Shown here: positions 14,903 to 31,689 of the stretch, one piece after another
Layout: every line of letters starts with the position of its first letter
Numbering within the stretch: the first letter of the stretch is position 1
From: Klenkia brasiliensis
GTDB lineage: Bacteria > Actinomycetota > Actinomycetes > Mycobacteriales > Geodermatophilaceae
Length of the DNA stretch: 64,000 nucleotides
Assembly (NCBI RefSeq): GCF_900100695.1
Contig: NZ_FNCF01000002.1
Coordinates: forward strand, 186,001-250,000
Direction of reading: 5' to 3'
The notes under the pieces: model-generated
Databases searched by the model: none
Seen by the model: the letters and a program-made list of their open reading frames with translations, nothing else
What the model was told of the DNA's origin: nothing
Position numbers and translations under genes: made by a program

Positions 14903-14958
14903 GCCTGCTCCTCTGGTCTGCAAGGGGGTGTTCCGGCGTCGCTGCCGGGGTCTGGGGG

Positions 14959-16329
14959 TCAGCCGGCGGCGCAGGCCTCGGCGAAGTCGCGGGCGGAGCC
15001 GCCGTCCCCGAGGGACAGGACGGCGGCGAGCACCCGCTCGGTGGTGGCGTCGTCGGCGACCGGGGCCATCGACTCCCGGTACTTGGCGACGACGTCGGCG
15101 TCGGTGAGCGGCCGGTCGGCGTGGCCGCGGTTGACCTGCTCGCGGTGGGCGAGCACCCGGCCGTCGGTGGTGGTGACCTGCACCCAGCCGGAGTAGGCAG
15201 CCGGGAAGGCGCTCTCGTAGTCGGGGACGACCTCGACCTTCCGGGCCAGGGCGAGCACCTCCGGGTCGCGCAGGGCCTCCTCGGACAGCTCGGCCAGGGT
15301 GAACCGGTCCCGGGCCAGCGCGGTGGAGACGATGTAGGGCAGCGAGAACTTCGCGTCGTACTCGTCGCGCGGTGCCCACTTGGCCGCGGCGGGCTCGCAG
15401 ACCACCTTGCCCGGCACCGGGTGGATGGCGCACCGGACCGAGGCCACGTCGGCGGCGGTGAGGCCGTGCTCGGCGCGCAGCAGCAGGACGGCGTCGGCGA
15501 AGGCGTGCGCGAAGTGGCAGACCGGGAAGGGCTTGACCGCCGTCTCCGGGGTCTCCCACCGCTGCCCGAGGCCGTCGGCGACCAGCTCGGGGTGGGTGTC
15601 GCGGCCGGACAGGTGGCTGGCGAACAGGCCGAACCGGCCCTCGTAGACCGCCTCCGGCCCGCTCCAGCCGGCCTTCGCGAAGGTGGCGGCGGTGATGCCG
15701 GACTGCGCGGCCCAGCCCGGGTGCAGCCGCTTGGTCCACGAGCCGTCCTCGAGGAACTCCAGCAGCCCGGCGGCCATCGACCCGACCACGCCCTGCGCGG
15801 CGACGAGCTGGTCGGCGTCCAGGCCGGCGATCTTGCCCGCGGCCACGGCGGACCCGAACGCCCCGGCCACCGCGGTGGGGTGGAAGCCCAGGTCGTGGAA
15901 GGCGCCGGCCCCGGCCAGGCCCACCCGGGCGGACACCTCGACGCCGAGCAGGTAGCCCAGCAGCAGGTCGCGGGTGGAGGCGTCGGCCGCGACCGCCGCG
16001 CTGATGGCGGCGGGCAGGGCCGCGGCGGAGACGTGGGTGACGGCGCCGATGTGGGTGTCGTCGAAGTCCAGCCCGTGCACGAGCACGCCGTTGAGCACGG
16101 CGGCGTCCCGCGCGGACAGCCGGGTCTTGGACCCCAGCACGGGGACGTCGCCGGTGCCGAAGGTGGCGAGCGCGTCGGCGGCGACGTCGGCGAACGGGTG
16201 CGCGGACGAGGCGAAGGCCAGCCCCACGGCGTCGAGCACGAGGTGGCGGGCGCGGTCCAGCACGGGTGGGGGGACGTCGTCCCAGGTGGTGCGGGCGACG
16301 ACGTCGGCGACCTGTCGGGCGATGCTCAT
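14959..16329 (-). CDS. MmgE/PrpD family protein
   Basis: 456-residue member of the MmgE/PrpD (2-methylcitrate dehydratase, cis-aconitate decarboxylase) family, with the N-terminal helical domain including [16 protein letters not shown] and the [15 protein letters not shown] segment near the active site. Family members dehydrate or decarboxylate tricarboxylic acids, but many remain unassigned. GGAGG sits 7 bases before the chosen ATG at 16329; an in-frame start at 16356 is less likely. In the cluster it could process a polycarboxylate produced with the PEP-mutase-family protein. Confidence 0.88.
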
Positions 16330-17672: not shown

Positions 17673-18374
17673 GTGACCGGCCCCGCGTACGCCGTGCTGG
17701 CGGGCAGCATCCGCGCCCGCATCCTGTCCGGCGAGCTCGTGCCGGGCGAGCGGCTTCCCAACGAGCAGGAGCTGTCGGCCGAGTTCGGGGTCGGCCGGTC
17801 CACGGTGCGCGAGGCGCTGCGGTCGCTGGCGTCGCAGGACCTGATCCAGACCACCCGCGGGGTGTCCGGCGGCAGCTTCGTCAGCGTGCCGACCGCGGCC
17901 CACCTGTCGGCGCACCTGGAGACCGGGGTGGCGCTGATGGCCGCCGCCGAGCGGGTGACGGTCGGTCAGCTGATGTCGCTGCGGCACCTGCTGGAGGTGC
18001 CCGCCGCCGGCGAGGCCGCCCGGAACCGCACCGACGAGCAGCTCGACGACCTGCGGCGGGCCGAGTTCGACCCCTCCGTGGAGTCCGGCGACGCGACCTA
18101 CGCGGCGAACCAGGACTTCCACCTCGTGCTGCTGCGGGCCACGGGCAACCCGCTGCTGGAGGTCATCACCGCGCCGCTGTTCCGGGTGCTGGCCACCCGC
18201 TTCGGCCGCGACCACGCACCCGACGGGTTCTGGGCCTGCGTCGCCGACGACCACGCGGAGCTGCACGACCTGGTCGCCGCCCGCGACGCCGAGGGTGCCG
18301 TCGCCGCCATGCGCCGGCACCTGGACCACCTGACCGGCGCCTACCAGCAGATGGACCGCCTCAGCCGGAGTTAG
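17673..18374 (+). CDS. FadR/GntR-family transcriptional regulator (FCD domain)
   Basis: 233 residues. N-terminal winged helix of the GntR type (residues about 5-70; RIRARILSGELVPGERLPNEQEL and FGVGRSTVREALRSLAS), then an all-helical FCD ligand domain with the metal-site histidines seen in NQDFHLVLL and RRHLDHL. Such regulators respond to acids from catabolic pathways. Divergent from the RutA cluster, it is the likely local repressor. GTG start without a clear ribosome site; a CAGACT hexamer 10 bases upstream raises the possibility of a leaderless mRNA. Confidence 0.92.
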   Translation: MTGPAYAVLAGSIRARILSGELVPGERLPNEQELSAEFGVGRSTVREALRSLASQDLIQTTRGVSGGSFVSVPTAAHLSAHLETGVALMAAAERVTVGQLMSLRHLLEVPAAGEAARNRTDEQLDDLRRAEFDPSVESGDATYAANQDFHLVLLRATGNPLLEVITAPLFRVLATRFGRDHAPDGFWACVADDHAELHDLVAARDAEGAVAAMRRHLDHLTGAYQQMDRLSRS

Positions 18375-18541
18375 CGTGCCTTTTCGGCTTCTCGATCACT
18401 TCGGCCACGGACGTATGCTCACCGGTAAGCAAATTTTCTTGGTGCTCCGATAGTGGAGGTCCAGGAGAAGGAAATAACAAGCGTACGGGGTTCGCTACTC
18501 ATAGATTGAAGCGCCAGCCCGGCTGAACGAATTTCGCCAGC
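18375..18541. other. AT-richer junction, no gene seen
   Basis: Here the composition drops from about 74% to roughly 50-55% GC, with runs such as AAATTTTC and AAGGAAATAAC. I found no tRNA, clear direct repeat or coding frame. It is the left edge of the foreign-looking island that runs to about 22.03 kb. Confidence 0.5.
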
Positions 18542-18826
18542 TTATCCAATTGTGAGTTGCTGCTCGTCGTCCACCCAGCCGTTGCGTCGAGCCGCTGGTG
18601 TCGCCGCACGAGATCCTGGCCAGTAAGAAGTCCACTCCGTCCTCAATCTCGTTCGAGAGTCCCTAGCTCTCTCGTCGCTGAATGCGTAAGGTCGCTCAGC
18701 AATGTCACGCAAAAGTTTATACCTCTCGGTGATCCACCCCCCCAGAGAAAATACAACAAGAGCAATCATCAATTGAATCGTTTTATCGTCGAAACCGTCA
18801 CCGGGCCTACTTTGTCTGCTCGTCAA
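18542..18826 (-). CDS. Small putative membrane protein downstream of the AAA-DUF4435 gene
   Basis: 94 residues from a TTG start that overlaps the end of the ATPase gene by 20 bases, or 75 residues from an internal ATG. One hydrophobic segment (about 18-35, QLMIALVVFSLGGWI) is followed by a charged tail. No family recognised. The overlap suggests translational coupling with the ATPase and makes it a possible accessory of that system, but a chance frame cannot be excluded. Confidence 0.4.
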   Translation of the reverse strand: MTSRQSRPGDGFDDKTIQLMIALVVFSLGGWITERYKLLRDIAERPYAFSDERARDSRTRLRTEWTSYWPGSRAATPAARRNGWVDDEQQLTIG

Positions 18827-20627
18827 GTAACTGTTGAACCTTGCTCGAGAGCGTATTTAGCGCCGCTAACACTGGCTGCCGAGCTATGACAGCGAGAAAG
18901 AACGCCTCGGAGTTTTTGAAGTTGGACACGTTGCGGACGAAGTCGCTTGCTATCCACTTCCCTCTGACCATAGGCCAAAGCGAGGGGGATGATGCCAATT
19001 CTTGGCTCGCAGCCGAGAGCGCCTCCGAGATGTCGGCGGGGTCCAGCTGAGGAAGGGTCCCTGCCATGGCATCGAGGCGAGATCGAGCCTGATCCCCGCG
19101 GGGTGACGGCCACAACACACTGGTCTTTTCGCGCAACTGTCGAACGGCCACCTCGATTACGGATTCATCCGCGTGATCTTTAAGGAGACGATCGAGTTCG
19201 GCCTTAAGGGCAGGCACCGTGGCAAACGGTGGCTTAATCAAAGCACCATCAATTGCGGCCTGAAGGAATTCGTCGTCGGAGAGAAGGACTCCCTCGAGAT
19301 CGGCGGCATCCCACGAGTGGACCATGCTGCTGATTGCTGTGGGAACTGGCGAAGCTCCAACATCAGCGTCTATAACACCCAGGATTGGCATTTCCAAATC
19401 CGCCAGTGCGCTGACCGTCTTGAGTACAGGATCTCTACCGCCGGAATTGCGGATAAATGCTGCGCCGAGGGCGGGAATGAGTTTGGGGAGGACTAGTGAA
19501 TCGAAATCCCCCTCAACAACCAGGAGCATCGAACTCTGGGTGAGGGCGCTGGCTCGAAAACCGGCGGAACGATACAGTTCGAGCCGGTCCGATTCGGTGC
19601 TAATTGTGGACGCCGGGCCTGAGTGGGTAAGACGGATGATTGACTCCGGGGGGATACCGTCCAATATTGCGGGGCTGTGAGTGGCCATAATGAGTTGTCC
19701 GCCTTCTTGCATGCCGAGATCAAGCGCACTGACCAACCGGCTGCTTAGGGCCGGATGGAGGTGGACATCCGGCTCGTCAATGACCATCAAGGAGTATCCG
19801 CTTGAAGCGCGGAACACTCGGCTAATGATTATGAGTGCTTGCCGTTCGCCGCTTGAAAGATCGCCGACCCCGTGGCTAGACCCGCCGGGAATTTCGATGC
19901 GAAGGTCGGTTGGATTTTGTCGAGTAAGTGAGCCTAGGGCCTTCGGGTATATCAATTGATCGACCGCTGCACGAAAACGCGCCCATGCGTCAGCTTCGCC
20001 GCCATCTGGGCCACCGTCTTCGTCGTTCGGGAGGCTGGCAGCGACGCATAAGGCACGTGCGTAAGATTCGAACTCAGAGTCACTGAGTTGCCCCATCCCG
20101 ACAGCTGACGAGCGTGCGTTCGCCAGGGCGCTCTGAGCTCGGTCGTCTGCGAGTTGGTTCAAGTCGATAGGCCCTGGACCGGTTGGGACCAGCGACCGCT
20201 CGGCTGGCAAATAGATGGCATTGAGCGACGGGAAGCGGCTAAGTATCTGCTGCTGTTGAAATGCGTAAAACGTTGCAAGGTGTTCCTGTGGGCCCAGGTT
20301 CAAGACACCCGATTCACCGTAGTAAGTCTTCACGATTTCGACTGTCGCGGGCGGGCGGCCCTGGTTCCAGCCGCTTTGTCTGTCGTACTGAACGATCGCA
20401 TCTAACTCTTCTTCTGAGAACTGCACTTCTAGGGTGACAGTGGACGCATGTCGACGGTCGGCCGGGCTGGGGATGGATCCGGTCCACAACGACATGAGGC
20501 AAGCTAGAAGGCGGCTCTTGCCCGTGCCGTTCGCTCCGGCGACGGCGGTCAATCGGCCATTTGGGAACTCCAGTAGGGCGTCATGGAGTCCGCCGATGTT
20601 CTCTGTTTTTAACTTGGTGATACGCAT
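18807..20627 (-). CDS. AAA/ABC-type ATPase fused to a DUF4435 (TOPRIM-like) domain, candidate merged PARIS protein
   Basis: 606 residues. ABC-class AAA ATPase: Walker A GANGTGKS (31-38), signature DLSSGERQ (257-264), Walker B LMVIDEP (281-287) with a following DVHLHP, and H-loop ATHSP (316-320). A second domain begins with VVEGDFDSLVLPKL (371-384) and continues with SGGRD, GVIDADVG (418-425) and ADLEGVLL (443-450), the pattern of DUF4435/TOPRIM proteins; VEGD and DAD supply the acidic residues expected to hold metal. PARIS anti-phage systems pair an AAA15 ATPase (AriA) with a DUF4435 effector (AriB), sometimes merged. Alternatives are a generic OLD-like nuclease. AT-richer codon use than its neighbours points to transfer. 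Confidence 0.75.
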   Translation of the reverse strand: MRITKLKTENIGGLHDALLEFPNGRLTAVAGANGTGKSRLLACLMSLWTGSIPSPADRRHASTVTLEVQFSEEELDAIVQYDRQSGWNQGRPPATVEIVKTYYGESGVLNLGPQEHLATFYAFQQQQILSRFPSLNAIYLPAERSLVPTGPGPIDLNQLADDRAQSALANARSSAVGMGQLSDSEFESYARALCVAASLPNDEDGGPDGGEADAWARFRAAVDQLIYPKALGSLTRQNPTDLRIEIPGGSSHGVGDLSSGERQALIIISRVFRASSGYSLMVIDEPDVHLHPALSSRLVSALDLGMQEGGQLIMATHSPAILDGIPPESIIRLTHSGPASTISTESDRLELYRSAGFRASALTQSSMLLVVEGDFDSLVLPKLIPALGAAFIRNSGGRDPVLKTVSALADLEMPILGVIDADVGASPVPTAISSMVHSWDAADLEGVLLSDDEFLQAAIDGALIKPPFATVPALKAELDRLLKDHADESVIEVAVRQLREKTSVLWPSPRGDQARSRLDAMAGTLPQLDPADISEALSAASQELASSPSLWPMVRGKWIASDFVRNVSNFKNSEAFFLAVIARQPVLAALNTLSSKVQQLLDEQTK

Positions 20628-20803
20628 AGCGCCCCTTGAACTGTGCTGGCCGGGTACCCATTCTGGCTTGCGACTCTGCGAGATGCCAGTGCGCCATGTG
20701 GGTCTGCGCGAGTAGCGGGGCGCCGGGTCGGGGCGACTTTCGCAAGTTGGCCATTAACAACCAGCCGGGGGAGGGGGCGCATCTGCGCTCCAGTTGGCGG
20801 TTC
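20628..20803. other. Island intergenic region upstream of the ATPase
   Basis: 176 bases holding the expected promoter of the minus-strand ATPase gene. I see no strong -10/-35 pair and no convincing inverted repeat. No coding frame here looks real on either strand. Confidence 0.4.
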
Positions 20804-21408
20804 CTACTTTGAGACCTTCGGGCTCGGCCTGTGGAACAGTCGCCCGAGCGCTGTGCGGGCCAGCCCGCGCCGAGGCCCGTCGATATCGCCCAGGCTGTCC
20901 ACGTCCACGCCGGAGATGATGGCGAGCGGCAGGCGCGCGTCAATCTCCGAGTCGGCTGACCCCGATGTGGTCATGACCTCGACCATCTGCGCTCGCAAGC
21001 TGCGCAGCCACCCCGCCGCCGACTCCTGCAGCGCCGGTCGCCATGCCGACTTGACCATCAGCTCTTAGTCGGTGATCAACTGCTTCCCGCACGCCGAGCA
21101 TCCCTCGATCATGTAGTTGGCGACGGCGTCAGCCATCTCGACGAGCGTCCCCGAGGCTAGGCGGGCGATCACGCATGCAATCGTGCGCCCTCGATCTCCG
21201 AGTGGCGGGCGAACGCGGCCTTCACCAGCTTGTCCTTGCCGGTGACGTACCAGCTCACTACAGCAAGTTGCGCCCCGGCCTCGGCGGCCAGCCCGCGCAT
21301 CGACAACCCGGCTAGGCCGTCGCGGGCGATGATCCGCAGCGTCGCGTCCGGCAGCTCGGCCTTGCGCGACGCCCCGTTGCGGCTCGGCGGCTCGGTCGCG
21401 GCACCCAT
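20804..21408 (-). pseudogene. Decayed TetR-family regulator (frameshift plus in-frame stop)
   Basis: Read piecewise, this gives a nearly complete TetR regulator of about 195 residues. The start at 21408 leads into an HTH (ATLRIIARDGLAGLSMRGLA, ending GKDKLVKAAFARHSE). Near 21180 the frame shifts (net loss of one base or gain of two), continuing as IACVIARLASGTLVEMADAVANY. At 21065-21067 a TAA interrupts ...QLITD|stop|ELMVKSAWRP, where other TetR proteins usually have an aromatic residue before EL. The same frame then gives a TetR-like C-terminal domain down to 20804. Both lesions break the gene, so it is probably inactive. Confidence 0.7.
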
Positions 21409-21597
21409 CCTCCCCGGGCTTTGTGCCCCGCATCGCGATCGTGCTCAAGGTGAGTGGTCGTCCAATTCTGAGTGGAGCACCAGCTTGGGTTATGGGGCGC
21501 TGAGGGCGTTTCCGCGGAAAGGGGTAAGCCGCTTCACCAGGCCGGTTCCATGGGCGGTGAGGACGTCGATGACCTCAAAGGCGGCCGGCACGTCTGA

Positions 21598-22032
21598 TTG
21601 AGCGCCGAGCAGTACCGGGAGCGGTTCGGGCGCGAACCCGAGCCTCCTGACGAGCCCACGGACCCGTGGCCCGACCCGGGCGCCTGGCTCGGCTGGACGC
21701 AGCCCTGGCCGCCGCCGTCCGTCGTGGTCGTCATGGCCGACCACGGGGACGTGTACCTGTGGAACCGGTCGCCCGGGCGAGACCCCTGGTGCAACAGCTA
21801 CACCCTGGCCCCGAAGGTGCTCGGCATCAGCCCCGGCCTGACCGGCCGGCTGCGGGCTTGGAAGGGGCGGTACGGCCTGCACGAGATGCCGGCGGCTTGG
21901 ATCGACGAGGGCTGGACGCCCGCGCACGACTTGCAGGAGCAGTTCGACGCCCGCGGTCTGGACGTCGCGGTGCGTCACCACGACGCGGACGCCTCCGAGC
22001 CCGCCGTGCGGGGTTACCGACGTCCCCGGTGA
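21598..22032 (+). CDS. Hypothetical protein, Trp/Pro-rich
   Basis: 144 residues from a TTG start that directly follows an in-frame TGA (21595-21597). The same frame upstream of that stop continues as a short open stretch from an ATG near 21550, so the gene may be the surviving 3' part of a longer one. The sequence is rich in Trp and Pro (WPDPGAWLGWTQPWPPP), then WNRSPGRDPWCNSY and a charged C-terminus. No family recognised. GC rises again here, marking the right side of the island. Confidence 0.55.
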   Translation: MSAEQYRERFGREPEPPDEPTDPWPDPGAWLGWTQPWPPPSVVVVMADHGDVYLWNRSPGRDPWCNSYTLAPKVLGISPGLTGRLRAWKGRYGLHEMPAAWIDEGWTPAHDLQEQFDARGLDVAVRHHDADASEPAVRGYRRPR

Positions 22033-22069
22033 GTCCGGGGGACGGCGACGGGGAGGCGCGGCGGCAGCG

Positions 22070-23125
22070 TCAGTGGGTGCGGGTGACCTTGGCCAGGCCC
22101 TCCGGGGTGTCGGGGTCCAGGCCCCGGCCCAACGCGGCGGCGTGGGCCAGGAGCTGGAACGGCAGGATCTCCAGCAGCGGCAGCAGGGTCTCGTCGACGT
22201 GCGGGGGCAGGGGCACCTCGTGGGCGGGGGAGAGACCGGCGGGCGGTCCCACCGTCACCACGGTCGCCCCCAGGTCGGCGGCCCGCGTCCCGAAGTCGGT
22301 GACCGAGGCCCGGGCCGCGGAGCCGGCGGTCAGCAGGAGGACCAGCGTCCCCGGCCCGACCTGGCCCAGCGGGCCGTGGGTGGCGTCGGCCGCGCTCCAC
22401 CCCGAGGCGGCCACCCGGTTGGTCTCCATGAGCTTGAGGGCGCCCTCGCGGGCGCTGGACATCGACAGGCCCCGCCCGACCACCAGCATCCGGTCGGTGG
22501 CCAGGGCGGCGTCGACCACCGGACCGCCCGGCAGGTCCGCCCGCAGCACCTCCTCGGCGGCCGTCACCGCGCCGCCGACCCGGGCCCGGACGGCGTCCCA
22601 GGGGTCGCCGGCGGCGAGGGAGACCACCGCGTGCAGGGCCAGCAGGCTCGCCGTGTAGGTCTTGGTCGCCGCCACCGACAGCTCCGGACCGCAGCCCAGG
22701 TCCAGGTGCAGGTCGCCGAGCCGGGCGACGGTGCTGCCCGGGGTGTTGGTGATCGACAGGACGGTGACGCCGGCCGCCTTCGCCGCCCGCACCGTCTCGA
22801 TCAGGTCCGGGGACTCGCCGGACTGCGACACCGCGACCAGCACGGCGCGCGGGTAGCGCAGCTGCGCCCGGTAGGCGGTGAACGCACTCGGCGTCGCCAG
22901 CATCGCGGGGATGCCGAGCCGGGCGTGCACCAGGTACTGCGCGTAGGTGGCGGCGTGGTCGCTGGTGCCCCGCGCGGCCAGCACGACCAGCTCGGGGTCG
23001 ACGTCCCGCAGCAGGTCGGCGGCGGCCTGCAGGTCGGCGGCGCCCTCGTCGACCAGTCGCGCCCAGACCGCGGGCTGCTCCTCGATCTCCCGGCGCAGCA
23101 GACCGCCGGGCAGCACGGCCGTCAC
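22070..23125 (-). CDS. Two-SIS-domain sugar isomerase/deaminase (NagB-II/AgaS-like)
   Basis: 351 residues with two SIS phosphosugar-binding domains. The first has AARGTSDHAATYAQY and the phosphate loop SQSGESPDLIE; the second has VVGRGLSMSSAREGALKLME. The layout equals the isomerase half of GlmS without its glutamine amidotransferase, as in NagB-II/AgaS ketosamine-phosphate deaminases or isomerases. Last gene of the seven-gene operon; its GTG overlaps the ATPase stop by four bases. It would process the phosphorylated amino sugar made by the ROK kinase. Confidence 0.88.
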   Translation of the reverse strand: MTAVLPGGLLRREIEEQPAVWARLVDEGAADLQAAADLLRDVDPELVVLAARGTSDHAATYAQYLVHARLGIPAMLATPSAFTAYRAQLRYPRAVLVAVSQSGESPDLIETVRAAKAAGVTVLSITNTPGSTVARLGDLHLDLGCGPELSVAATKTYTASLLALHAVVSLAAGDPWDAVRARVGGAVTAAEEVLRADLPGGPVVDAALATDRMLVVGRGLSMSSAREGALKLMETNRVAASGWSAADATHGPLGQVGPGTLVLLLTAGSAARASVTDFGTRAADLGATVVTVGPPAGLSPAHEVPLPPHVDETLLPLLEILPFQLLAHAAALGRGLDPDTPEGLAKVTRTH

Positions 23126-23868
23126 GACGACAGCCCGGTGATCATGCCGATGACCTCGTTCTTGTCGGTCCCGGCGGTGGGCCGGGTGCCCACCTGGGTG
23201 CCGCGGCGCAGCACGGTCACCCGGTCGGCGATGCGGAAGACCTGGTCCAGGTTGTGCGACACGATGAGCACCGCCGCACCGCGGCTCTTGAGCTTGAGGA
23301 TGACCTCCTCCACCTTGGCCGTCTCGGCGACGCCGAGGGCGGCGGTGGGCTCGTCCATGAGCACCAGGCCCGACGCCCAGTGGGTCGCCCGCGCGATGGC
23401 GATGCCCTGCCGCTGCCCGCCCGAGAGGTCACCGAGCAGGGCCCGGGCCGACGGGATGCGGACGTCGAGGTCCTCGACCAGCTGCTGGGTCTGCCGGGCC
23501 ATCTCCTTGCGGTCGAGCACCCGCAGCGGTCCGCGGCGCAGTTCGCGGCCGAGGAAGAGGTTCATGTAGACCGGCTGCAGGTCCACCAGGGCGAGGTCCT
23601 GGTAGACCACCTCCACCCCCTTGGCGCGGGCGTCGGCGGCGTCGCGGAAGGTGACCTGCTCGCCGTTGATCTCGATGGTGCCCTCGCTGGGCTGGTACAG
23701 CCCCGAGATGATCTTGACCAGCGTGGACTTGCCGGCCCCGTTGTCGCCGACGAGGGCGACGATCTCGCCCGGGGCGACCTCCAGGTCGAAGCGCTGGATG
23801 GCGGTCACGCCGCCGAAGTGCTTGCTGACGCCCTCGAGGCGGAGAGGTGCTGCGGTCGTGGTGGTCAT
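23122..23868 (-). CDS. Sugar ABC transporter ATP-binding protein
   Basis: 248 residues, one nucleotide-binding domain: Walker A GDNGAGKST, Q-loop VVYQDLAL, signature LSGGQRQG, Walker B GLVLMDEPTAAL, H-loop IVSHN. It is the single-domain type (FrcA-like) instead of the double-domain RbsA type, so it would act as a homodimer with the permease encoded two genes upstream. ATG overlaps the stop of the YhfX-like gene (ATGA). Confidence 0.93.
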   Translation of the reverse strand: MTTTTAAPLRLEGVSKHFGGVTAIQRFDLEVAPGEIVALVGDNGAGKSTLVKIISGLYQPSEGTIEINGEQVTFRDAADARAKGVEVVYQDLALVDLQPVYMNLFLGRELRRGPLRVLDRKEMARQTQQLVEDLDVRIPSARALLGDLSGGQRQGIAIARATHWASGLVLMDEPTAALGVAETAKVEEVILKLKSRGAAVLIVSHNLDQVFRIADRVTVLRRGTQVGTRPTAGTDKNEVIGMITGLSS

Positions 23869-25088
23869 GACGGCCTTCCGGTTCCCAGGGCTGCGGTGAC
23901 GGTGAGGGGGGCGGACCCGTCGGCCGCCCAGATGCCCGCCACCTCGGGCCGGCCGGTGGACAGGCCGCGGATGCCCGCGGTGAGCGCCCGGGTGACGAAC
24001 ACCTGCGGACGGAAGCCGAACAGCACGGTGTCGCCGGGGCGGGCCCGGTCGGCTGCACCGGGCACGATCGCGTAGTAGTCGATGGCGGAGGCGGCCGGCA
24101 TGTCGACGTCCAGCTCGGCGGCGTCCTCGACGTCCACGTCGTCGCCGAGCACGAGGGCCCGGGTCGGCACGTCGCCGAGGACCGGGTCGACGTAGAGCCC
24201 GCCCCCGAAGACGTAGGCGTCGCCGCTCCAGGTGTGCGAGACCTCCGAGAGGTAGACGATCGCCGGGTCCTCGACCAGGTCCTGCACCGCGTGCAGCGGG
24301 GTGGTGCCGGTCAGCCCGTGGCCGGGCTCGACCTGCGTGGCGCCGGCCTCGGCCAGCGTCTGCAGCACCGACACCGACGTGGTCCCGGGGGCGTTGAGCT
24401 CGACGTCGGTGCGGCCGGCTGCCAGCAGTGCCTGCTTGACCCGGGTCAGGGTGCCGAGGTTCGGGGTCGAGCGCGCCGTGCCCGACGCCGCGTCGAACAG
24501 GGTGGCCGGGAAGCTGGTGACCCCGGCGAACCGGGCACCGGGCAGGTCGTCGACCAGGGCGGCCAGCGCCACGACGTCCTCGGGGGCGACGCCGCCCTCG
24601 TGACCCCGGTAGAAGCGGTCGCCGGGTGCGGCGACCCGGATGAGCAGGTCCTGCACCCGGCCGGCGCGCTCCGCCGCGGCGGCGGCCTCCCGGGCCTTGG
24701 CCTCGGAGAAGACCGTCCAGTACGAGGGCTGCAGGGCGGCGGCGTCGTCGGCCGAGTGCCGCGGGATCTGCACCAGGTGGCCCAGGTGGCCGATGCCCAG
24801 CCCGCCGGCCGCTGCGGCCACGGCGCACTCGAGGTCGACCCCGACGGCCTGGGCGATGCCGCCGGCGGCGATTGCCCGCGAGGCGTCGGGGTTCCGCCCG
24901 ATCTGCTTGGTCATCGCGAACGGGGTCAGGCCCAGGCGCTGCGCCTCGGCGGTCACCGCCGCCGCGTTGCGCTCGACCGCGTCGAGGTCCAGCACGTAGG
25001 TGTTGGGCGGCAGCACGCCGGCCCGGTGGAAGGCGTGGGCGGCGCGCAGCAGCGGGACGGCACGCCGGCGGAGGAGGGGGAGGAACAC
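23865..25088 (-). CDS. YhfX-family PLP-dependent enzyme (alanine racemase fold)
   Basis: 407 residues resembling E. coli YhfX, a fold-type III PLP enzyme related to alanine racemase. The N-terminal barrel strand carries TPFAMTKQIGRNP, where the lysine is the probable PLP Schiff base. Later TSFPATLFD, EPGHGLTGTTP and YLSEVSHTW are family features. The reaction is not known; in E. coli yhfX sits with php (yhfV), as here. It lies between permease and ATPase genes, with a 3-base gap to the permease stop and an overlap with the ATPase start, so it belongs to the same pathway. Confidence 0.8.
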   Translation of the reverse strand: MFLPLLRRRAVPLLRAAHAFHRAGVLPPNTYVLDLDAVERNAAAVTAEAQRLGLTPFAMTKQIGRNPDASRAIAAGGIAQAVGVDLECAVAAAAGGLGIGHLGHLVQIPRHSADDAAALQPSYWTVFSEAKAREAAAAAERAGRVQDLLIRVAAPGDRFYRGHEGGVAPEDVVALAALVDDLPGARFAGVTSFPATLFDAASGTARSTPNLGTLTRVKQALLAAGRTDVELNAPGTTSVSVLQTLAEAGATQVEPGHGLTGTTPLHAVQDLVEDPAIVYLSEVSHTWSGDAYVFGGGLYVDPVLGDVPTRALVLGDDVDVEDAAELDVDMPAASAIDYYAIVPGAADRARPGDTVLFGFRPQVFVTRALTAGIRGLSTGRPEVAGIWAADGSAPLTVTAALGTGRPS

Positions 25089-25091
25089 GGG

Positions 25092-26072
25092 TCAGCCCTG
25101 CTTCTTGCCGCGGAGGGACAGGGAGACCGCCAGCAGGATGATGATCCCGCGGACGATCATCTGCTGGGACACGTTGAGCCCGGCCAGGATCAGGCCGTTG
25201 TTGATCATGCTGATGAGCAGCGAGCCGATCAGGGCGCCGACCATCGAGCCCTTGCCACCGGTCAGCGCGGTGCCCCCCACGATGACCGCGGCGAGCACCG
25301 AGAGCAGGTCGCTCTCGCCGAGGGTGTAGCGCGCGCCCTGCAGCCGGCCGGAGTACAGCAGCGCGGCCATCGCGGCCGTCATGCCGCTGACCACGAACAC
25401 CCACATCCGCACCCGGTCCACCCGCACGCCGCTGACGCGGGCGGCCGAGGTGTTGTTGCCGACCGCGAGCACGTGCGCACCGAACCGGCGCTGCCGCAGC
25501 AGGTGCGCGCCGACGACCGTCACCACGACCGTCCACCAGATGATGGTGGGGATCCCGAGCAGGTCACCGCCGCCGAAGATCCACACGAACGCGTCGACGG
25601 TGACCGGCACCGACTGCAGGTCGGTGAGCTGCCGGGCGATGCCGGTGACCAGGCCCATCGAGGCGAGCGTGACCAGGAACGACGGCAGCCGGACGTAGGT
25701 CACGAAGACCCCGTTGACCGCGCCGACCGCCGCGCCCACCGCGAGACCGGCGGCAGCCCCCAGCAGCCAGTTGCCGGTGGACTCCAGCACCAGCGCGGCA
25801 CCGAGGGAGGCCAGCGCGACGGTGGACCCGATGGAGAGGTCGATCTCCCCGGTGCTCAGCACGAACACGGCCCCGACGGCCATGATCGCGATCGGCGCGG
25901 CCTGGATGACCACGTTCGTCAGGTTGGTCGGCGTCAGGAAGTACTGCGCCTGGGTGACCGCGAAGAACAGGAAGGTCAGCAGGAAGCCGATGTAGACGAC
26001 GCTCGCGCGCCAGTCGACCGCCGGTAGCCGCCGGCTCGTGCCCTCGCGGGTGTCGGTGTCGGTGGTGCTCAT
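25092..26072 (-). CDS. Sugar ABC transporter permease (RbsC type)
   Basis: 326 residues with 8-10 hydrophobic helices. The segment VLSTGEIDLSIGSTVALASLG is the family signature of ribose/galactose-type (CUT2) permeases, as is GNNTSAARVSGVRVDR in the cytoplasmic loop and GGTALTGGKGSMVGALIGSLLI near the end. Only one permease gene is present, implying a homodimer. ATG overlaps the ROK kinase stop by four bases. Confidence 0.94.
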   Translation of the reverse strand: MSTTDTDTREGTSRRLPAVDWRASVVYIGFLLTFLFFAVTQAQYFLTPTNLTNVVIQAAPIAIMAVGAVFVLSTGEIDLSIGSTVALASLGAALVLESTGNWLLGAAAGLAVGAAVGAVNGVFVTYVRLPSFLVTLASMGLVTGIARQLTDLQSVPVTVDAFVWIFGGGDLLGIPTIIWWTVVVTVVGAHLLRQRRFGAHVLAVGNNTSAARVSGVRVDRVRMWVFVVSGMTAAMAALLYSGRLQGARYTLGESDLLSVLAAVIVGGTALTGGKGSMVGALIGSLLISMINNGLILAGLNVSQQMIVRGIIILLAVSLSLRGKKQG

Positions 26073-26983
26073 CGGGTTCCTTCCAGGGCGGGTCCGGGGG
26101 CGTGGGCGCGGGCGAGGTGGATGGCCCCGAGGACCGGGGCCTGTGGGCCGAGGGTGCTGGCCCGGACGGCGAGGTCGGCGGCGCCGAGCTCGTCGAGGGT
26201 GCGCCGCAGCGGGGGGAGCAGCTCGGCCCGGGACCCGATGCCGCCGGTCAGCACGACGACCTCCGGGTCCAGGACCGCGCGGACGGCGACCAGCGCGAGG
26301 GCCAGCCAGTGCGCGTGCTCGGCGACGGCGTGGGCGGCGGCCGGGTCGGTCGCCACGGCGTCGAAGATCTCCGTCGTCGTCCAGCTGCGGCCGTCGTGGG
26401 CCCGCGGGGGCACCCGGGCGGCCAGGACGTCGCCGGCCACGGCCTCCTCGAGCGGGCCCCGCCGGTGGTGGGCGGGGTCGAAGGGGTCGGTGCCCAGCGG
26501 CAGGAAGCCGATCTCACCGGCGGCGCCCCGCGCGCCGCGCACCAACCGGCGGTCGACCACGACGCCCATGCCGATGCCCGTGCCGGAGGCGACGACCACG
26601 AAGGAGTCGTGCCGGGTGCCCACCCCGTGGTGCAGCTCGCCGAGCGCGGCGACGTTGACGTCGTTCTCCAGCACGACGGGGTGGCCGAGGTGGCGCGCCA
26701 GGTCGGGGCCGAAGGACGCGCCCGTCGGGAGGTCGAGGTTCGGGTGGAGGTCGAACCCGTCGTCCTCGGCCGCGCCCGCCCCGCCGACGGCGGTCACCTC
26801 GACGGCGGACAGCGGTACGCCCACCTCGCGGACCAGGGCGTGCTCGACCTCGAGGATGCGGCCGGCGAGGTCGCCGTGGGTGGCCACCCGCGTCTCGGCG
26901 AGCAGGTCGCCGTCCGGGCCGGAGATGCCGGCGTGGATCTTCGTGCCCCCGAGGTCGACGCCGACCACGTAGCCGGCGCTCAC
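26069..26983 (-). CDS. ROK-family sugar kinase lacking the zinc motif
   Basis: 304 residues. The phosphate loop GVDLGGTKIHAG opens the protein, and the catalytic Asp lies in ENDVNVAALGE. GEIGFLPLGTDP follows where most ROK kinases have GEIGH...CxCGxxGC; the zinc-binding His and cysteines are all missing. VVVLTGGIGSRAELLPPLR closes the ATP site. It probably phosphorylates the imported sugar or amino sugar. GTG start overlapping the PHP stop (GTGA). Confidence 0.88.
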   Translation of the reverse strand: MSAGYVVGVDLGGTKIHAGISGPDGDLLAETRVATHGDLAGRILEVEHALVREVGVPLSAVEVTAVGGAGAAEDDGFDLHPNLDLPTGASFGPDLARHLGHPVVLENDVNVAALGELHHGVGTRHDSFVVVASGTGIGMGVVVDRRLVRGARGAAGEIGFLPLGTDPFDPAHHRRGPLEEAVAGDVLAARVPPRAHDGRSWTTTEIFDAVATDPAAAHAVAEHAHWLALALVAVRAVLDPEVVVLTGGIGSRAELLPPLRRTLDELGAADLAVRASTLGPQAPVLGAIHLARAHAPGPALEGTR

Positions 26984-27993
26984 GCGGCGGCCGCCAGCAG
27001 CCGCGCGGGGGTGTGCCGGAGCAGCTGCTCGACCTGCTCGTCGGTGACGCCGCGGTCGGTGAGCATGGGCACGAAGACGTCGGCGAGGTAGCGGTAGCCG
27101 GTGGTGCCGTGGGTGTCGGCGTTCATCCACGCCTCGGCGCCGGTGAGGTCCTGGGCGAGCACCACGCGGTCGCCGAACCCCTCGGCGACCAGCCCGGCGA
27201 CGAGGTCGGCGCGGCCGGCGTCGGAGCGGTGGAAGCACCGCTTGGCGAACTCGCCGTCGGCGCGGCCGCGCTGCGGCGGGCCGAGGAAGAACTCCCACTC
27301 CTGCTTGCCGATGGTGTCCACGGCGACGCACGCGCCGGTGGCGAGGACCCGGCGGGGCAGGTCGGGGTCGAGCTGGGTGTCCAGGTGCCCGACGACGACG
27401 CGGGCGGGGTCCAGGCCCTCGGCCACGAGCAGCTCGACCTGGTCGATGGCCAGGGTGCCGTGCGTGGTGTGGGTCATCAGCGCGGTGCCGGTGCGCAGCG
27501 CGGCGCGGGCCGAGGCGCGGAGGGCGCGCTCCTCGAAGGCGGACATCTCACCGAGGCCGGTCGCCTGCTCGCCGAGGACGCCGGCGCGGATGCCGGAGCC
27601 GCCGATGCCGGTGGTGAGGTCGGTGACCAGCCGGTCGGTCAGCTGCTCGACGGAGGCCTCGCGGGCCCAGGCAGGGGCCCAGGACTCGAGGTAGAGCGCG
27701 GTGCCGCTGATGACGTGCAGGCCGCTGCGCCGGGAGACCTCGGCCAGGAGGGCCACGTTCTCGCCGTCGGCGTCGCGGCCGACCACGCCGTAGGGGGAGA
27801 GGTCGACGACGGTGCCGAAGCCGCGGTCGGGGAGGCCGCGCAGGGCGTGCACGGCGAGCTCGACGGGGTCGCCCAGCGGGGCGTCGGCGGCGGTCCAGGG
27901 ACCGGGGGAGAGGGAGAGCAGGTGCTCGTGCGGCATGACGCGGCCGAGCTCGTCGGCCGGCACCGGGCCGAGGACGGTCTGTACGTGGGGCAT
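26980..27993 (-). CDS. Phosphotriesterase-family metallohydrolase (PHP-like)
   Basis: 337 residues of the phosphotriesterase/PHP amidohydrolase family. Metal ligands visible: H22 and H24 in MPHEH, E142 in GVLGEQA (PHP-type proteins use Glu where phosphotriesterase uses a carboxylated Lys), H175/H178 in MTHTTH, H203 in GHLD, and D282 in LAQD. Such enzymes hydrolyse lactones or phosphate esters; the native substrate of PHP is unknown. It follows the binding-protein gene by 52 bases and probably works on the imported compound or a lactone made from it. Confidence 0.88.
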   Translation of the reverse strand: MPHVQTVLGPVPADELGRVMPHEHLLSLSPGPWTAADAPLGDPVELAVHALRGLPDRGFGTVVDLSPYGVVGRDADGENVALLAEVSRRSGLHVISGTALYLESWAPAWAREASVEQLTDRLVTDLTTGIGGSGIRAGVLGEQATGLGEMSAFEERALRASARAALRTGTALMTHTTHGTLAIDQVELLVAEGLDPARVVVGHLDTQLDPDLPRRVLATGACVAVDTIGKQEWEFFLGPPQRGRADGEFAKRCFHRSDAGRADLVAGLVAEGFGDRVVLAQDLTGAEAWMNADTHGTTGYRYLADVFVPMLTDRGVTDEQVEQLLRHTPARLLAAAA

Positions 27994-28045
27994 GGGATCC
28001 CTGCCTGTGGGGGTGGGGGCGGCCCGGGGCCGCCCCCACCGGCGA

Positions 28046-29164
28046 TCAGTTGACGCTGCTGGGCAGGTCGGTGCCGTAGTCCTCGCGCCAGGCGTCCTCG
28101 AGGTTGTCGGTGGTCACCTTGACCGGCGGCGAGGCCACCAGGGCCGGGGCCTGCTTGTCCAGCACGCCGTAGGCGGCGGCCAGGGCCAGCCCGCGACCGA
28201 TGTCGATCGAGCCGTTGCCCACCAGCCCGACGACGTTGCCGCCGTCGACCATGTCCGCGGCGAGGGTGGCGTCCAGGTCGTTGGTGACGACCTTGACGTC
28301 GGAGCGGCCGGCGTTGCGCAGGGCGGAGACGACGCCCTGGGCGGCGGTGGCCCAGGAGACGTAGATGCCGGTGATGTCGGGGTTGCGGGCGATCATCGCG
28401 GCCGCGACCTCCTCGGTCCGCGCCTCGTCGGCGAAGCCCTCCTCGGCCACGATCTGCATGTCGGGGTACTCGTAGCCCAGCCAGTTGCGGAAGGCCTCGT
28501 CGCGCTGGTTGGTGAACCAGAAGTCCGCGTCGTGGTAGATGTAGCCGACCTGGCCGCTGCCGCCCAGGGCGTCGCCGAGGATCTCCGCGTTGGCCCGGCC
28601 CGCCTCGGTCAGCGACTCGGTGACGATCGAGACGAACTGGTCGCCGGCGGTGTAGCCGGCCGGCGGCGTCGTCATCACGACCAGGGTCTTGCCGGCGTCG
28701 ACGGCGGGCTGGAAGGCCGCCGCGGCCGAGGTCGGGTCGACCGCGATGGTCACGATGATGTCGGGGTCCAGGGCCAGCACGCTCTGCACGTTGTTGGCCT
28801 GGGTCGCGGCGTCGAAGTCGGCCTGCGTGCTGGCCACCACGTCGATGCCCAGGTCCTCGAACTCCTGCCGGGCGCCGTCCTCGACGGCGGAGACGAACTC
28901 CGAGGAGGTGTGCCAGACGAAGGCGGCGGTGTAGGAGCCGTCGCGGACAGTGGCCTCCTCCTCGTCGGTCAGGGTCAGCTCGTCGAGGTCCCCGGGCTGC
29001 TCCCCGTTGGGGCCCTGGAACTCCAGGCTCGGCTCGCTGGCCGGCGCGGCGTCGCCCGACGAGGACGGGGTGTCGTCGCCGCTGGAGCAGGCGCTCAGGG
29101 CCAGGGTCGTGCCGACGAGCGCGGCGGCCAGGGGCCGCAGCCGCCGGGAACGGGTGAGCTGCAT
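28046..29164 (-). CDS. Sugar ABC transporter substrate-binding lipoprotein
   Basis: 372 residues. A 25-residue signal peptide ends in the lipobox LALSAC, so the mature protein is a lipoprotein anchored outside the membrane. A Ser/Asp-rich linker follows, then a type-I periplasmic binding fold of the RbsB kind (GARQEFEDLGIDVVAST, NNVQSVLALDPDIIVTI, VVTNDLDATL). First gene of the operon; ATG start with GAGGT upstream. Its ligand is unknown and would define the pathway. Confidence 0.93.
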   Translation of the reverse strand: MQLTRSRRLRPLAAALVGTTLALSACSSGDDTPSSSGDAAPASEPSLEFQGPNGEQPGDLDELTLTDEEEATVRDGSYTAAFVWHTSSEFVSAVEDGARQEFEDLGIDVVASTQADFDAATQANNVQSVLALDPDIIVTIAVDPTSAAAAFQPAVDAGKTLVVMTTPPAGYTAGDQFVSIVTESLTEAGRANAEILGDALGGSGQVGYIYHDADFWFTNQRDEAFRNWLGYEYPDMQIVAEEGFADEARTEEVAAAMIARNPDITGIYVSWATAAQGVVSALRNAGRSDVKVVTNDLDATLAADMVDGGNVVGLVGNGSIDIGRGLALAAAYGVLDKQAPALVASPPVKVTTDNLEDAWREDYGTDLPSSVN

Positions 29165-29244
29165 GGGTGACCTCTCGGGGGGGTGTGCTGGGTGGTGGTG
29201 CGGAGTTTGCTTTCCGCTCGCAATCAAAGTCAAGGACGGATGTT

Positions 29245-29260
29245 GTAACGATCACGTTGC
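29245..29260. promoter_or_regulatory. Candidate operator of the ROK repressor
   Basis: GTAACG-ATCA-CGTTGC: arms AACG/CGTT pair perfectly and the outer G/C pair too, with one mismatch. It sits in the 165-base region between the divergent ROK regulator and the substrate-binding-protein gene, the usual place for a local ROK repressor site. Confidence 0.45.
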
Positions 29261-29329
29261 GGGCGGGTGCAGCTAGGTGATGCGGTCCGGCCCGGTTACT
29301 TTTGCTCTCACAACGAGTGGAGGGGAGCC

Positions 29330-30466
29330 ATGACCGACCTGCGTGAGGCCAACCGCGGGGCCGTGCTCTCGGACCTGCTCCTGCACCGGCCGACCACCCG
29401 CACGGCCATCGCGCAGCGCACCGGGCTGTCGGCCGCGACCATCTCCCGCGCCGTGGAGGTCCTGGTGGCCGACGGCGTCGTCCGCGAGGTGTCCGAGGTC
29501 GTGTCCGCCAACCGCGGCCGCCGCGCGGTCGCCCTGGACCTCGTCGGCGAGCGCAGCGTCGTGGCCGGCGTCGACCTCGGTGCCAGCGCCACCCGGGTCG
29601 TGCTGGTCGACTTCGCCGGTTCGGAGCTGCGGCGGTGGGAGCAGCCCACCCGCAGCGACCTGCCGGCGGCGGACCTGGCCGACTGGCTGGCCGGGATGCT
29701 CACCGACCGGTCGGCCGACCTCGGCGCCGGGCTGGCTGCGGTGTCGGTCGGCCTCCCCGGGGCCGTCGCCGAGTCCGGGGCGGTCTCGAACGCCCCCAAC
29801 CTGCCCCAGGTGATGGACCCCGGCTTCGTCACCGGCCTGCGCCGGGCCGGCGGGGTCGGCGTCCGGGTCGACAACGATGTCAACTACGCCCTGCTCGGCG
29901 AGCAGCGTCGCGGCGCCGCCGCCCATGCCGGGGACGCCGCGATGGTCACCATCGGGGCCGGCCTCGGCGCCGCGCTGGCCATCGACGGCCGCATCCTGCA
30001 CGGCCGGCACGGGCTGATCGGGGAGTTCGGCCAGCTCCCCGCGGGCCCCATGGGCACCCGGCTCGAGCACATGGTCACCGGCCCGGGGATCCTGCGGCGT
30101 GCGGAGGAGGCCGGGGTCCCGCTCGCCCGCCCGCAGGACCTCTTCGCCGAGGAGCACCGCCTCTCACCTCTGCGCACCCAGTTCGACCACGCGCTGCAGA
30201 TCGTGCTGACCGCCGTCGCGGTGGCCAGCGAGCCGGAGGTCGTCGTCCTCGGTGGGGGCATCGCGGACTCCCTGGCGGGCGACCTGGACCGCTACCAGGC
30301 CACGCTCGGCGCGACGCTGCAGGTCGCGCCCCGGCTCGTGCCCGCGGAGCTCGGCGCGTTCTCCGGGGCGATCGGTGCTGCCATCGACGCGGTGCACTCC
30401 CTCTACGCCGACCTGGGTGCCGAGCCCGGGCTGGGCGGCGGTCACGGCCGCAGCGCCGCCTCCTGA
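29330..30466 (+). CDS. ROK-family transcriptional repressor
   Basis: 378 residues. An N-terminal winged helix (TRTAIAQRTGLSAATISRAVEVL) is joined to a ROK sugar-binding domain that starts VVAGVDLGASATRVVLVD. DNDVNYALLGE keeps the position of the kinase Asp, but the GEFGQLPAGPMGTRLEH region lacks the CxCGxxGC zinc motif, as in the kinase of the facing operon. It is expected to repress the operon until the imported sugar binds. Start at 29330 chosen for its GGAGGGGAG site. Divergent from the binding-protein gene. Confidence 0.92.
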   Translation: MTDLREANRGAVLSDLLLHRPTTRTAIAQRTGLSAATISRAVEVLVADGVVREVSEVVSANRGRRAVALDLVGERSVVAGVDLGASATRVVLVDFAGSELRRWEQPTRSDLPAADLADWLAGMLTDRSADLGAGLAAVSVGLPGAVAESGAVSNAPNLPQVMDPGFVTGLRRAGGVGVRVDNDVNYALLGEQRRGAAAHAGDAAMVTIGAGLGAALAIDGRILHGRHGLIGEFGQLPAGPMGTRLEHMVTGPGILRRAEEAGVPLARPQDLFAEEHRLSPLRTQFDHALQIVLTAVAVASEPEVVVLGGGIADSLAGDLDRYQATLGATLQVAPRLVPAELGAFSGAIGAAIDAVHSLYADLGAEPGLGGGHGRSAAS

Positions 30467-30498
30467 CCCCGGCCCGCAGGCGTTCCCGCGGGGACGCG

Positions 30499-31689
30499 TC
30501 AGGCGGACGGCGGGCGGCGGGTGTGCCAGTCCGTCTGCTGCTGGTACCAGAGGCCGGCGGCGAACAGGACGTCCTCGGCGTCCTCCGGGGCGGTGAGCTG
30601 GACGCCGACCGGCATCCCCGTCGCCGGGTGGAAGCCGACCGGCAGCGCCAGCGTCGGGCCGGCGTGCAGGGACCACGGGTAGGTCAGCGACCCCAGCCGC
30701 CGGGACACCCGCAGCACGTCGTCGGGGTCGGCGCGGGGGACGTCGACCGGCAGCGTCGGCGTGAGCAGCAGGTCCACGCCGTCCAGCGCTGCCGAGATGC
30801 GGGACTGCAGTGCGCGCCGCGCCTCCACGGCGGAGGCCCGCTGGGCGGCGGTGATGTCCCGGCCCAGGCCGATCCGCACCAGGCTGTCGGGGTGGAACCG
30901 CTCCGGTGCCGACGCGAGCCGGTCGGCGTGGATGCGGGCCAGGTCGGCGTAGACCAGCGTGTAGACGATGTCCTGCGCGTCGAGCAGGCCCTCGACCTCC
31001 ACCGGCACGACCTCGGCGCCGAACACCGCCACCGCCGCGTCCACCACCGCCTGCACGCCCGGGTCGACGTCGGTCAGCAGCTGCACCGGGATGCCGATCC
31101 GCCGCGGGGCGGCCGGCTCCGGGAGGCCCGCCGAGGACCCGGTGAGCACCCGCTGCGCGCGGGCCACCAGGGAGACGGTGCGCGCGAGCGGTCCCACGGT
31201 GTCCACGTCGTCGCAGACCGGGAAGACGCCGTCCAGCGGGACCGAGCCGTGCGTGGGCCGCAGCCCGACCACCCCGCACGCCGACGCCGGCAGCCGGACC
31301 GAGCCGCCGGTGTCGGTGCCCAGCGCCAGGTCCACGGTGCCCGCCGCGACCGCGGCTCCCGACCCCCCGCTCGACCCGCCCGGGATGCGGGAGAGGTCCC
31401 ACGGGTTGCGGCACGGCCCGGCCGCGGAGTTCTGGTTGGTCACCCCGACGGCGAACTCGCTCAGGTTCAGCGTCGCCACCACCTGCGCGCCGGCGTCCGA
31501 CAACCGCCGCACGACCTCCGCGTCGTGGTCGGGCACCCGGTCGGCGAAGAACGCGGACGCGCACGTCGTGGGCCCGCCGGCGACGTCCACGTTGTCCTTG
31601 ACGCCCACCCGCACCCCGGCGAGCGGGCCGGGGCCACCGGGCCGGTCCACCCACCGGATCACCGCGTTCACGTGGTCGTCCACCAGCAC
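30499..31689 (-). CDS. Amidase (amidase-signature family)
   Basis: 396 residues. The signature GGSSGGSGAAVAAG with the downstream GTDTGGSVRLPASACGVVGLRPTHG supplies the Ser-cisSer-Lys catalytic triad; the Lys lies in VGVKDNVDV. It hydrolyses an amide to acid and ammonia. GTG start at 31689, with further in-frame GTG codons nearby. It diverges from the CoA-pathway operon across a palindromic site at 31716, so it may supply that pathway's acid from its amide. Confidence 0.9.
   Translation of the reverse strand: MLVDDHVNAVIRWVDRPGGPGPLAGVRVGVKDNVDVAGGPTTCASAFFADRVPDHDAEVVRRLSDAGAQVVATLNLSEFAVGVTNQNSAAGPCRNPWDLSRIPGGSSGGSGAAVAAGTVDLALGTDTGGSVRLPASACGVVGLRPTHGSVPLDGVFPVCDDVDTVGPLARTVSLVARAQRVLTGSSAGLPEPAAPRRIGIPVQLLTDVDPGVQAVVDAAVAVFGAEVVPVEVEGLLDAQDIVYTLVYADLARIHADRLASAPERFHPDSLVRIGLGRDITAAQRASAVEARRALQSRISAALDGVDLLLTPTLPVDVPRADPDDVLRVSRRLGSLTYPWSLHAGPTLALPVGFHPATGMPVGVQLTAPEDAEDVLFAAGLWYQQQTDWHTRRPPSA

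Follow-up and report, generated by a model that had tools for sequence, protein, structure and literature searches.

What kind of compound is served by an operon in which a sugar-type ATP-binding cassette (ABC) importer of the CUT2 class is interleaved with a hydrolase of the phosphotriesterase (PTE) family, a YhfX-like enzyme dependent on pyridoxal phosphate (PLP), a ROK-family putative kinase and a two-SIS-domain protein? The question is raised by a 64,000-nucleotide stretch of Klenkia brasiliensis DNA (contig NZ_FNCF01000002.1, positions 186,001 to 250,000; hereafter the window), where seven co-directional genes on the minus strand (22070-29164) are faced by a divergent gene for a ROK repressor. 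The host genome comprises 4.45 Mb on 14 contigs, and the G+C content of the window is 67-78% per 4 kb. We tentatively favor, with somewhat less than even confidence, the view that the operon is a transferable uptake-and-breakdown module for a small amide-linked conjugate that joins an amino-acid-like part to a sugar or amino-sugar part; the substrate class, the order of the steps and every reaction we infer. A sequence-only reading of the same DNA had envisaged import, phosphorylation and isomerization or deamination of an amino sugar, supplemented by PLP and lactonase steps. That proposal is borne out in part, with amide cleavage now preferred to lactone hydrolysis.

Recurrence of the gene set

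Scanning genome contigs with a six-sequence YhfX alignment returned 445 relatives, of which the 80 best-scoring loci were kept and combined with the window and two further loci, L009 and L010, into a set of 83 operons. The entire gene order is preserved in both of the latter, at 87-99% identity in L010 (G001, same genus) and at 49-79% identity in L009 (G053, same family). More widely, the permease, YhfX and ATPase genes follow one another in this order in 73 of the 83 operons. The accompanying hydrolase belongs to the PTE family in 39 operons and to the M20 deacylases in 29; among the 15 operons with neither, eight are cut at an end, including one (L046) that has a PTE gene on the facing arm. 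PTE-type operons mostly show the full order binding protein-PTE-ROK-permease-YhfX-ATPase (33/39), and nearly all have a divergent ROK gene (38/39). M20 proteins were assigned by sequence grouping with that of L052, which matches PF01546 and PF07687 and scores 155.5 bits against the ArgE/DapE subfamily, below the cut-off of 217.6. A long ROK protein (>360 aa) is encoded in 27 of the 29 M20-type operons; such proteins were taken as helix-turn-helix (HTH)-bearing by their length, the HTH having been verified in the window and in L052. The gene set is not a chance mix, and its order is kept across other genera and families. As a yardstick for chance, the window genome has two PTE genes in 4.45 Mb, so that a random gene would lie within 8 kb of one in about 0.7% of cases.

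Not all genes recur equally. The SIS gene accompanies 26 of the 39 operons with PTE and 8 of the 29 with M20; a short, kinase-type ROK gene occurs in 4 of the latter. Because SIS protein and ROK kinase are accessory by these counts, the core of the system consists of transporter, YhfX and hydrolase, and the idea that SIS protein and kinase form the core was rejected. The earlier notion of a seven-gene unit thus holds for the co-occurrence of the genes, but it gives way to this smaller core.

The YhfX-like C-terminal domain (PF21279) is rare: it was found in 4 of 97 relatives and in 5 of 396 genomes of the window's phylum, in 11 of 398 genomes of the phylum of L052 (Pseudomonadota), and in 8 of 299 and 12 of 201 genomes of the phyla of L081 and L086, respectively. 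Across 36 YhfX-bearing genomes from four phyla, four of which (G000, the window genome, and G485, G486 and G487) are center genomes picked for carrying YhfX, a PTE gene is found no more than eight called genes away from YhfX in 20, an M20 gene in eight and neither in eight. The operon represents a cross-phylum module with patchy distribution and is not peculiar to the Klenkia brasiliensis genome. Together, the operon and phylum counts support the previously suggested co-occurrence of Php, YhfX, SIS and CUT2 families, and the genome searches for homologues scattered without such company did not refute the grouping.

When 124 YhfX genes were gathered, PTE was near 61 of them, M20 near 40, and both near none. 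L153, which has a split YhfX (calls under 330 aa) together with yhf genes and an SIS gene, was left out of this grouping, and L166, the start of a contig already included, was not used. Group A (21 rows) is arranged as in E. coli (yhfZ-U-T-php-S-X-W type), with PTE in 19 rows and SIS or ROK in none; yhfT, yhfU and yhfZ are near yhfX in 20 of its 21 rows and in 0 of 41 PTE/CUT2 rows. The latter constitute group B, with ROK in all 41 and SIS in 29, whereas the 37 rows of group C combine CUT2 with M20 (ROK 34, SIS 9). Another 11 rows have a CUT2 permease and no hydrolase within reach, and 14 lack the CUT2 permease (APC 5, M20 3, PTE 1, no partner 3). In a tree of all 124 rows, built by a quick method, a branch with support 87 separates group A from all other rows, and three changes of the B/C label are needed. 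Two other arrangements were seen. At L011:3263-8169 (same contig as L090), a four-gene run encodes SIS, an APC amino-acid permease, YhfX and a long ROK protein, with no ABC importer. At L012:5467-11782, the neighbors of YhfX are SIS, a PfkB kinase and a pair of ABC ATPases accompanied by a Peripla_BP_6 binding protein.

Flank comparison among the genomes of the genus shows that the operon and its repressor are gained or lost together, at a position that varies within the genus. The flanking amidase gene (30499-31689) is present in eight of the nine genomes of the genus (the remaining one is 73% complete), and YhfX is present in only two, the window genome and G001. In six genus mates, the left flank stops near 18,360 and the right flank restarts near 30,500, the module being absent. 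G001 matches the window over 22077-30466 and lacks the 18.4-22.1 kb stretch. Between the shared flanks, the variable site (18367-30505) holds 1.3-13.4 kb of other DNA in the six genus mates.

Predicted chemistry of the module

How might hydrolase and YhfX act on a common substrate? The window PTE protein carries the metal ligands H22, H24, E142, H175, H203 and D282; the first two are conserved in 40 of 41 rows and the other four in all 41, including E. coli Php. The bridging metal ligand of phosphotriesterase is a lysine, which is replaced here by glutamate, as in E. coli Php. With 139.8 bits against the Php equivalog PRK09875 (cut-off 486), the protein is a relative outside this equivalog. 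The top PDB matches in a profile search are the E. coli PHP structures 4lef and 1bf6. Foldseek with the predicted model returned mostly phosphotriesterase variants among the 50 rows listed, E. coli PHP not among them, and also a Geobacillus kaustophilus lactonase (4h9z); the phospho-furanose lactonase family is matched weakly, at 68 bits. A functional parallel is provided by PTER, a mammalian PTE-family hydrolase of the amides N-acetyltaurine and N-acetyl-beta-alanine, which has the same kinds of metal ligands in the same order (HxH, E, H, H, D); the window protein differs in residing in a bacterial operon, and the likeness is one of metal ligands. M20 deacylases cleave C-N bonds, and the one activity found in the literature consulted for a Glu-type PTE is amide hydrolysis, so that the simplest step common to both operon types is amide cleavage. 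By analogy, the window PTE would be an amide hydrolase, like PTER. Lactonase activity was considered as the first choice and ranked second, because M20 deacylases occupy the PTE place in sister operons; the same finding weakens the lactonase step of the sequence-only reading.

YhfX was assigned by its C-terminal domain (PF21279, 76.6 bits, cut-off 27) and by Ala_racemase_N (PF01168, 56.4 bits, cut-off 24.1). A lysine in an MTKQ motif, K61, is invariant in 36 YhfX rows and in a six-row alignment that includes E. coli, and we infer that it is the PLP lysine. The protein matches the E. coli YhfX structure 4kbx (E=6e-69; 37% identity), and its AlphaFold2 model (pLDDT 94.1) has the D-threonine-aldolase fold according to Foldseek/VIA, at 15-20% sequence identity to fold-type III amino-acid enzymes. 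Judging by this predicted fold, YhfX belongs among amino-acid enzymes. It differs from D-threonine aldolase, D-3-hydroxyaspartate aldolase/dehydratase and D-serine dehydratase in lacking the His-x-Asp/Cys metal pair in the C-terminal strand. In AxDTA, the corresponding ligands are His347/Asp349 (PMC4401734). The window stretch that follows the shared GD-V, FGFRPQVFVTR, contains no His, Asp, Glu or Cys in either plausible register, the register having been set by eye and the profile alignment stopping just short of the pair; the E. coli equivalent is CFRTQIFVTR. D-threonine-aldolase chemistry was rejected for YhfX, since the fold agrees but the metal ligands are missing. Second, diverged YhfX copies occur in the same cluster at three loci (L035:2745-3941, L041:12028-13221 and L046:11217-12416) and form their own tree group (support 100); a heteromer or a second stereocenter is a possible explanation.

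The accessory enzymes point to sugars. The best NCBIfam matches of the SIS protein are GlmS (182.7 bits) and NagB-II, both under cut-off, and its PDB matches include 3fj1 and 8eol. The glutamate, histidine and C-terminal lysine that are catalytic in NagB-II/GlmS isomerases are retained (E234 and H250 in 42/42 SIS rows, K346 in 41/42), whereas the sequence GWSAADATHGP departs from SYSSAEVLHGP in 3fj1. Among short ROK proteins of PTE-type operons, the phosphate-binding motif DxGG[ST] of ROK kinases is present in 39 of 40 rows and the catalytic-Asp motif, as [EVD]ND[VA]N, in 38. The kinase and the NagB-II-like SIS protein, both encoded mostly in PTE-type operons, suggest that half of the substrate is an amino sugar; the whole would then be an amide of an amino acid and an amino sugar, or some comparable N-acyl compound.

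Binding protein, permease and ATPase all belong to the families of a CUT2 importer in Pfam and NCBIfam, as in E. coli RbsABC (Peripla_BP_4, BPD_transp_2, ABC ATPase). The ATPase, 79% identical to its L009 counterpart, is a single-domain protein of 248 aa with one ABC_tran match, in contrast to the tandem RbsA type, and an enzyme gene is placed between the permease and ATPase genes. Of the RbsB pocket residues, the binding protein keeps R141 and D215 and has lost D89, R90 and N190. The CUT2 label given earlier thus fits the component families, but the pocket is only partly RbsB-like and the ATPase half-size.

We envision a scenario whereby the binding lipoprotein captures the conjugate, which would be imported by the permease together with two copies of the half-size ATPase. 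PTE, or M20 deacylase in sister operons, would hydrolyze its C-N bond. YhfX, carrying PLP on K61, would process the freed amino acid without a metal, most likely by racemization or epimerization. Where the respective genes are present, phosphorylation of the sugar half would fall to the ROK kinase, and isomerization or deamination of the resulting amino-sugar phosphate to the NagB-II-like SIS protein. The divergent ROK protein might repress the operon from its intergenic site until a pathway sugar relieves repression.

Competing readings and the E. coli yhf cluster

Several observations weigh against this scenario. The parallel between PTE and PTER is based on numbered ligands and not on a residue alignment, the PTER ligands being derived from a model with mutants. 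Neither hydrolase is near YhfX in the eight sampled genomes mentioned above, of which two (G369, G931) are truncated at contig ends and G1246 was judged from a single gene-call set; neighbors were assigned by similarity to reference proteins, so that distant M20 or PTE genes could escape. The PTE/M20 split mostly tracks lineage, with M20 mostly in Alphaproteobacteria and PTE/CUT2 in Actinomycetota. Thirteen of the 39 PTE-type operons lack SIS (two being cut at that end), and the window protein misses both the NagB-II equivalog NF046059 (174.2 vs 430 bits) and the GlmS cut-off. The short ROK protein may not be a kinase: its status is doubtful because none of the 40 short ROK rows from PTE-type operons showed the zinc motif CxCGxxGC in a pattern search that spelling variants could escape, and because GEIGF stands at the position where ROK kinases usually carry ExGH.

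Finally, the pocket signatures of the binding proteins differ between PTE- and M20-type operons (RbsB positions 89, 90, 214 and 235), which together with the lineage link is the chief counterevidence. The two types may therefore import different compounds, and the chemistries of their hydrolases need not match. Conceivably, they represent two pathways that share only the YhfX step, which would make the either-or of PTE and M20 uninformative about PTE chemistry. Planosporangium flavigriseum, with five PF21279 matches in all (G489), fits this idea in having a PTE-type and an M20-type operon in one genome (L040, L041). The common permease-YhfX-ATPase core and the repeated label switches on the YhfX tree argue against it, and we consider separate pathways rather unlikely, albeit with an appreciable chance.

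An amino-sugar or sugar-lactone pathway, close to the sequence-only reading, would assign the role of a (phospho)sugar lactonase to PTE, give the main work to ROK kinase and SIS protein and leave YhfX as a side enzyme. CUT2 importers and ROK genes typify sugar operons, and the PTE relatives include lactonases, as seen above. Such a pathway appears improbable given the replacement of PTE by an M20 deacylase in sister operons and the E. coli-type php/yhfX clusters, none of which has SIS or ROK within reach (0/21 rows; the excluded L153 has SIS).

Alternatively, the operon might serve Amadori (fructosamine) catabolism in the manner of the fructoselysine operon frl, with import of a glycated amino acid, a kinase, a SIS deglycase and YhfX acting on a D- or unusual amino acid. 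The frl operon resembles the window in its logic of kinase, SIS protein and importer; in E. coli it adjoins yhf, and more than once YhfX is accompanied by SIS, by ROK or PfkB, and by an amino-acid-type transporter (L011/L090, L012). The window SIS protein resembles GlmS/NagB-II, and the FrlB-type model PRK11382 is not among its 18 NCBIfam matches, whereas E. coli FrlB scores 812 bits; the C-terminal lysine aligns with a glutamate of FrlB, uncertainly, at the alignment end. FrlB-type deglycation was set aside on this profile mismatch. Hydrolase and YhfX are additional to frl, and deglycation alone requires no PTE or M20 enzyme. We give this possibility a small chance. Least probable is the salvage of D-amino-acid-containing cell-wall or nitrogen compounds, with the hydrolase freeing a D-amino acid, YhfX racemizing it and the sugar genes handling a muramic or glucosamine part: fold-type III YhfX with its D-amino-acid-enzyme neighbors in fold space and the NagB-II-like SIS protein would suit it, but the SIS protein stays below 28 bits with MurQ-type models, and no cell-wall enzyme is found among the annotated recurrent operon members (some neighbors and clusters c8-c13 being unannotated).

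What does the amide-conjugate reading imply for E. coli? There, php and yhfX lie in a single cluster, yhfSTU-php-yhfWXYZ, with yhfW in between; the link drawn earlier to this cluster is supported. Php and YhfX are together in both species, and Php has the identical six metal ligands. The window differs in having a CUT2 importer, ROK kinase, SIS protein and ROK repressor and in lacking yhfS, yhfT, yhfU, yhfW and yhfZ within reach, and E. coli-type YhfX proteins form the separate tree group noted above. In agreement with the earlier description of the operon as undescribed, a literature search that most subscription papers lay outside yielded no published account of it or of YhfX function, and the literature searched gave no function for E. 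coli php (structures 1bf6, 4lef) or yhfX (4kbx). For L. rhamnosus, a YhfX family enzyme, a DUF2620 protein and a phosphotriesterase-related protein are tabulated as clade-specific, with no function given in that part of the source (PMC7513527). The gene names also occur in PMC4448311 and PMC10652928. Comparing the two systems yields a shared prediction: Php-type PTEs would be amide hydrolases partnered with YhfX, which would act on an amino-acid-like product. The orphan E. coli pair thereby gains a testable function, and results would transfer to its cluster. The CUT2-type operons also encode a soluble binding protein, so that the ligand can be screened for directly. A still broader claim, offered as doubtful, is that Php and YhfX form a conserved pair in an undescribed amide-conjugate catabolism, in which YhfX stands, across four phyla, beside at least three unrelated transporters (YhfT/U, CUT2, APC), bacterial Php hydrolyzes amides as a counterpart of PTER, and YhfX performs a new metal-free reaction on a D-threonine-aldolase scaffold.

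Candidate regulatory site and locus layout

Comparing the divergent regions of PTE-type operons revealed an inverted repeat (search pattern TTGACTTTRNTTGC-N4-TGAAATCAAA), which emerged by comparison; a palindrome search run on intergenic regions one at a time gave no match in the window. Of 35 non-redundant intergenic regions, 21 contain the 8-mer AAAGTCAA, against a maximum of 10 for any 8-mer in 200 block shuffles, and the simple repeat pattern is unmatched in 12 of the 35 (e.g., Micromonosporaceae, L009, L044). Allowing up to three mismatches, exactly one site per genome was found in 23 of 23 genomes, selected among PTE-type carriers in most of which the motif had been observed beforehand, and a reversed control gave 0 matches. 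In all 23, the site is flanked by the diverging binding-protein and ROK genes. The ROK repressor presumably binds this predicted operator, and TTGACT may double as a -35 element. A wider ROK regulon was rejected on the single site in each of the 23 genomes, which therefore offers no substrate hint; one repressor gene and one conserved site make for a simple inducer screen.

The gene set is the same in the open reading frame (ORF) list and in a separate codon-usage gene call. Pfam matches above cut-off comprise SIS (two stretches), ABC_tran, Ala_racemase_N with YhfX-like_C, BPD_transp_2, ROK, PTE and Peripla_BP_4; none of the NCBIfam families listed for the eight proteins reaches its cut-off (ATPase: best 25 of 187). 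From the SIS gene upward, the junctions measure -4, -4, +3, -4, -4 and +52 bases, which confirms that five of six are within 4 bases. Gene positions, the single overlapping operon and the facing repressor all agree with the sequence-only reading, and two starts were revised. For the binding protein, an ATG at 29164 with a lipoprotein-type signal (by eye) is more likely than a TTG at 29233, which falls within the conserved operator-like site; the regulator probably starts at 29330 rather than at 29267.

Table 1. Features of the YhfX operon and its regulatory region, in window positions
Feature	Position	Strand	Basis
Two-SIS-domain protein, GlmS/NagB-II-like, predicted amino-sugar-6-phosphate isomerase/deaminase, accessory	22070..23125	-	PF01380, two stretches
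Half-size ABC ATPase of importer, 248 aa, one ABC domain	23122..23868	-	ABC_tran (in ORF 23122-25536), gene call
YhfX-like fold-type III PLP enzyme	23865..25088	-	PF21279 + PF01168
CUT2-type permease	25092..26072	-	BPD_transp_2 E=1e-37
ROK-family putative sugar kinase, without HTH and CxCGxxGC zinc motif	26069..26983	-	PF00480 E=1.5e-37
PTE/Php-family metal hydrolase, Glu-containing two-metal site	26980..27993	-	PF02126 174.5 bits
Substrate-binding lipoprotein (Peripla_BP_4)	28046..29164	-	PF13407 E=9e-34; start by codon model and operator position
Conserved operator/promoter-like inverted repeat TTGACTTTGATTGC-N4-GGAAAGCAAA	29206..29233	-	Intergenic comparison, genome scans
Divergent winged-HTH ROK repressor (ORF from 29267)	29330..30466	+	PF00480 + HTH_24 above cut-off

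Two neighboring genes lie outside the operon. In the conserved left flank, 13850-15739 encodes RutA (pyrimidine utilization protein A; 576.8 bits, NCBIfam cut-off 498.3). An AAA ATPase at 18807-20627 (AAA_21 and AAA_15 above cut-off), in a lower-GC stretch that G001 lacks at this site, resembles defense ATPases of the AriA/PtuA type, its best PADLOC match being AriAB (91.5 bits).

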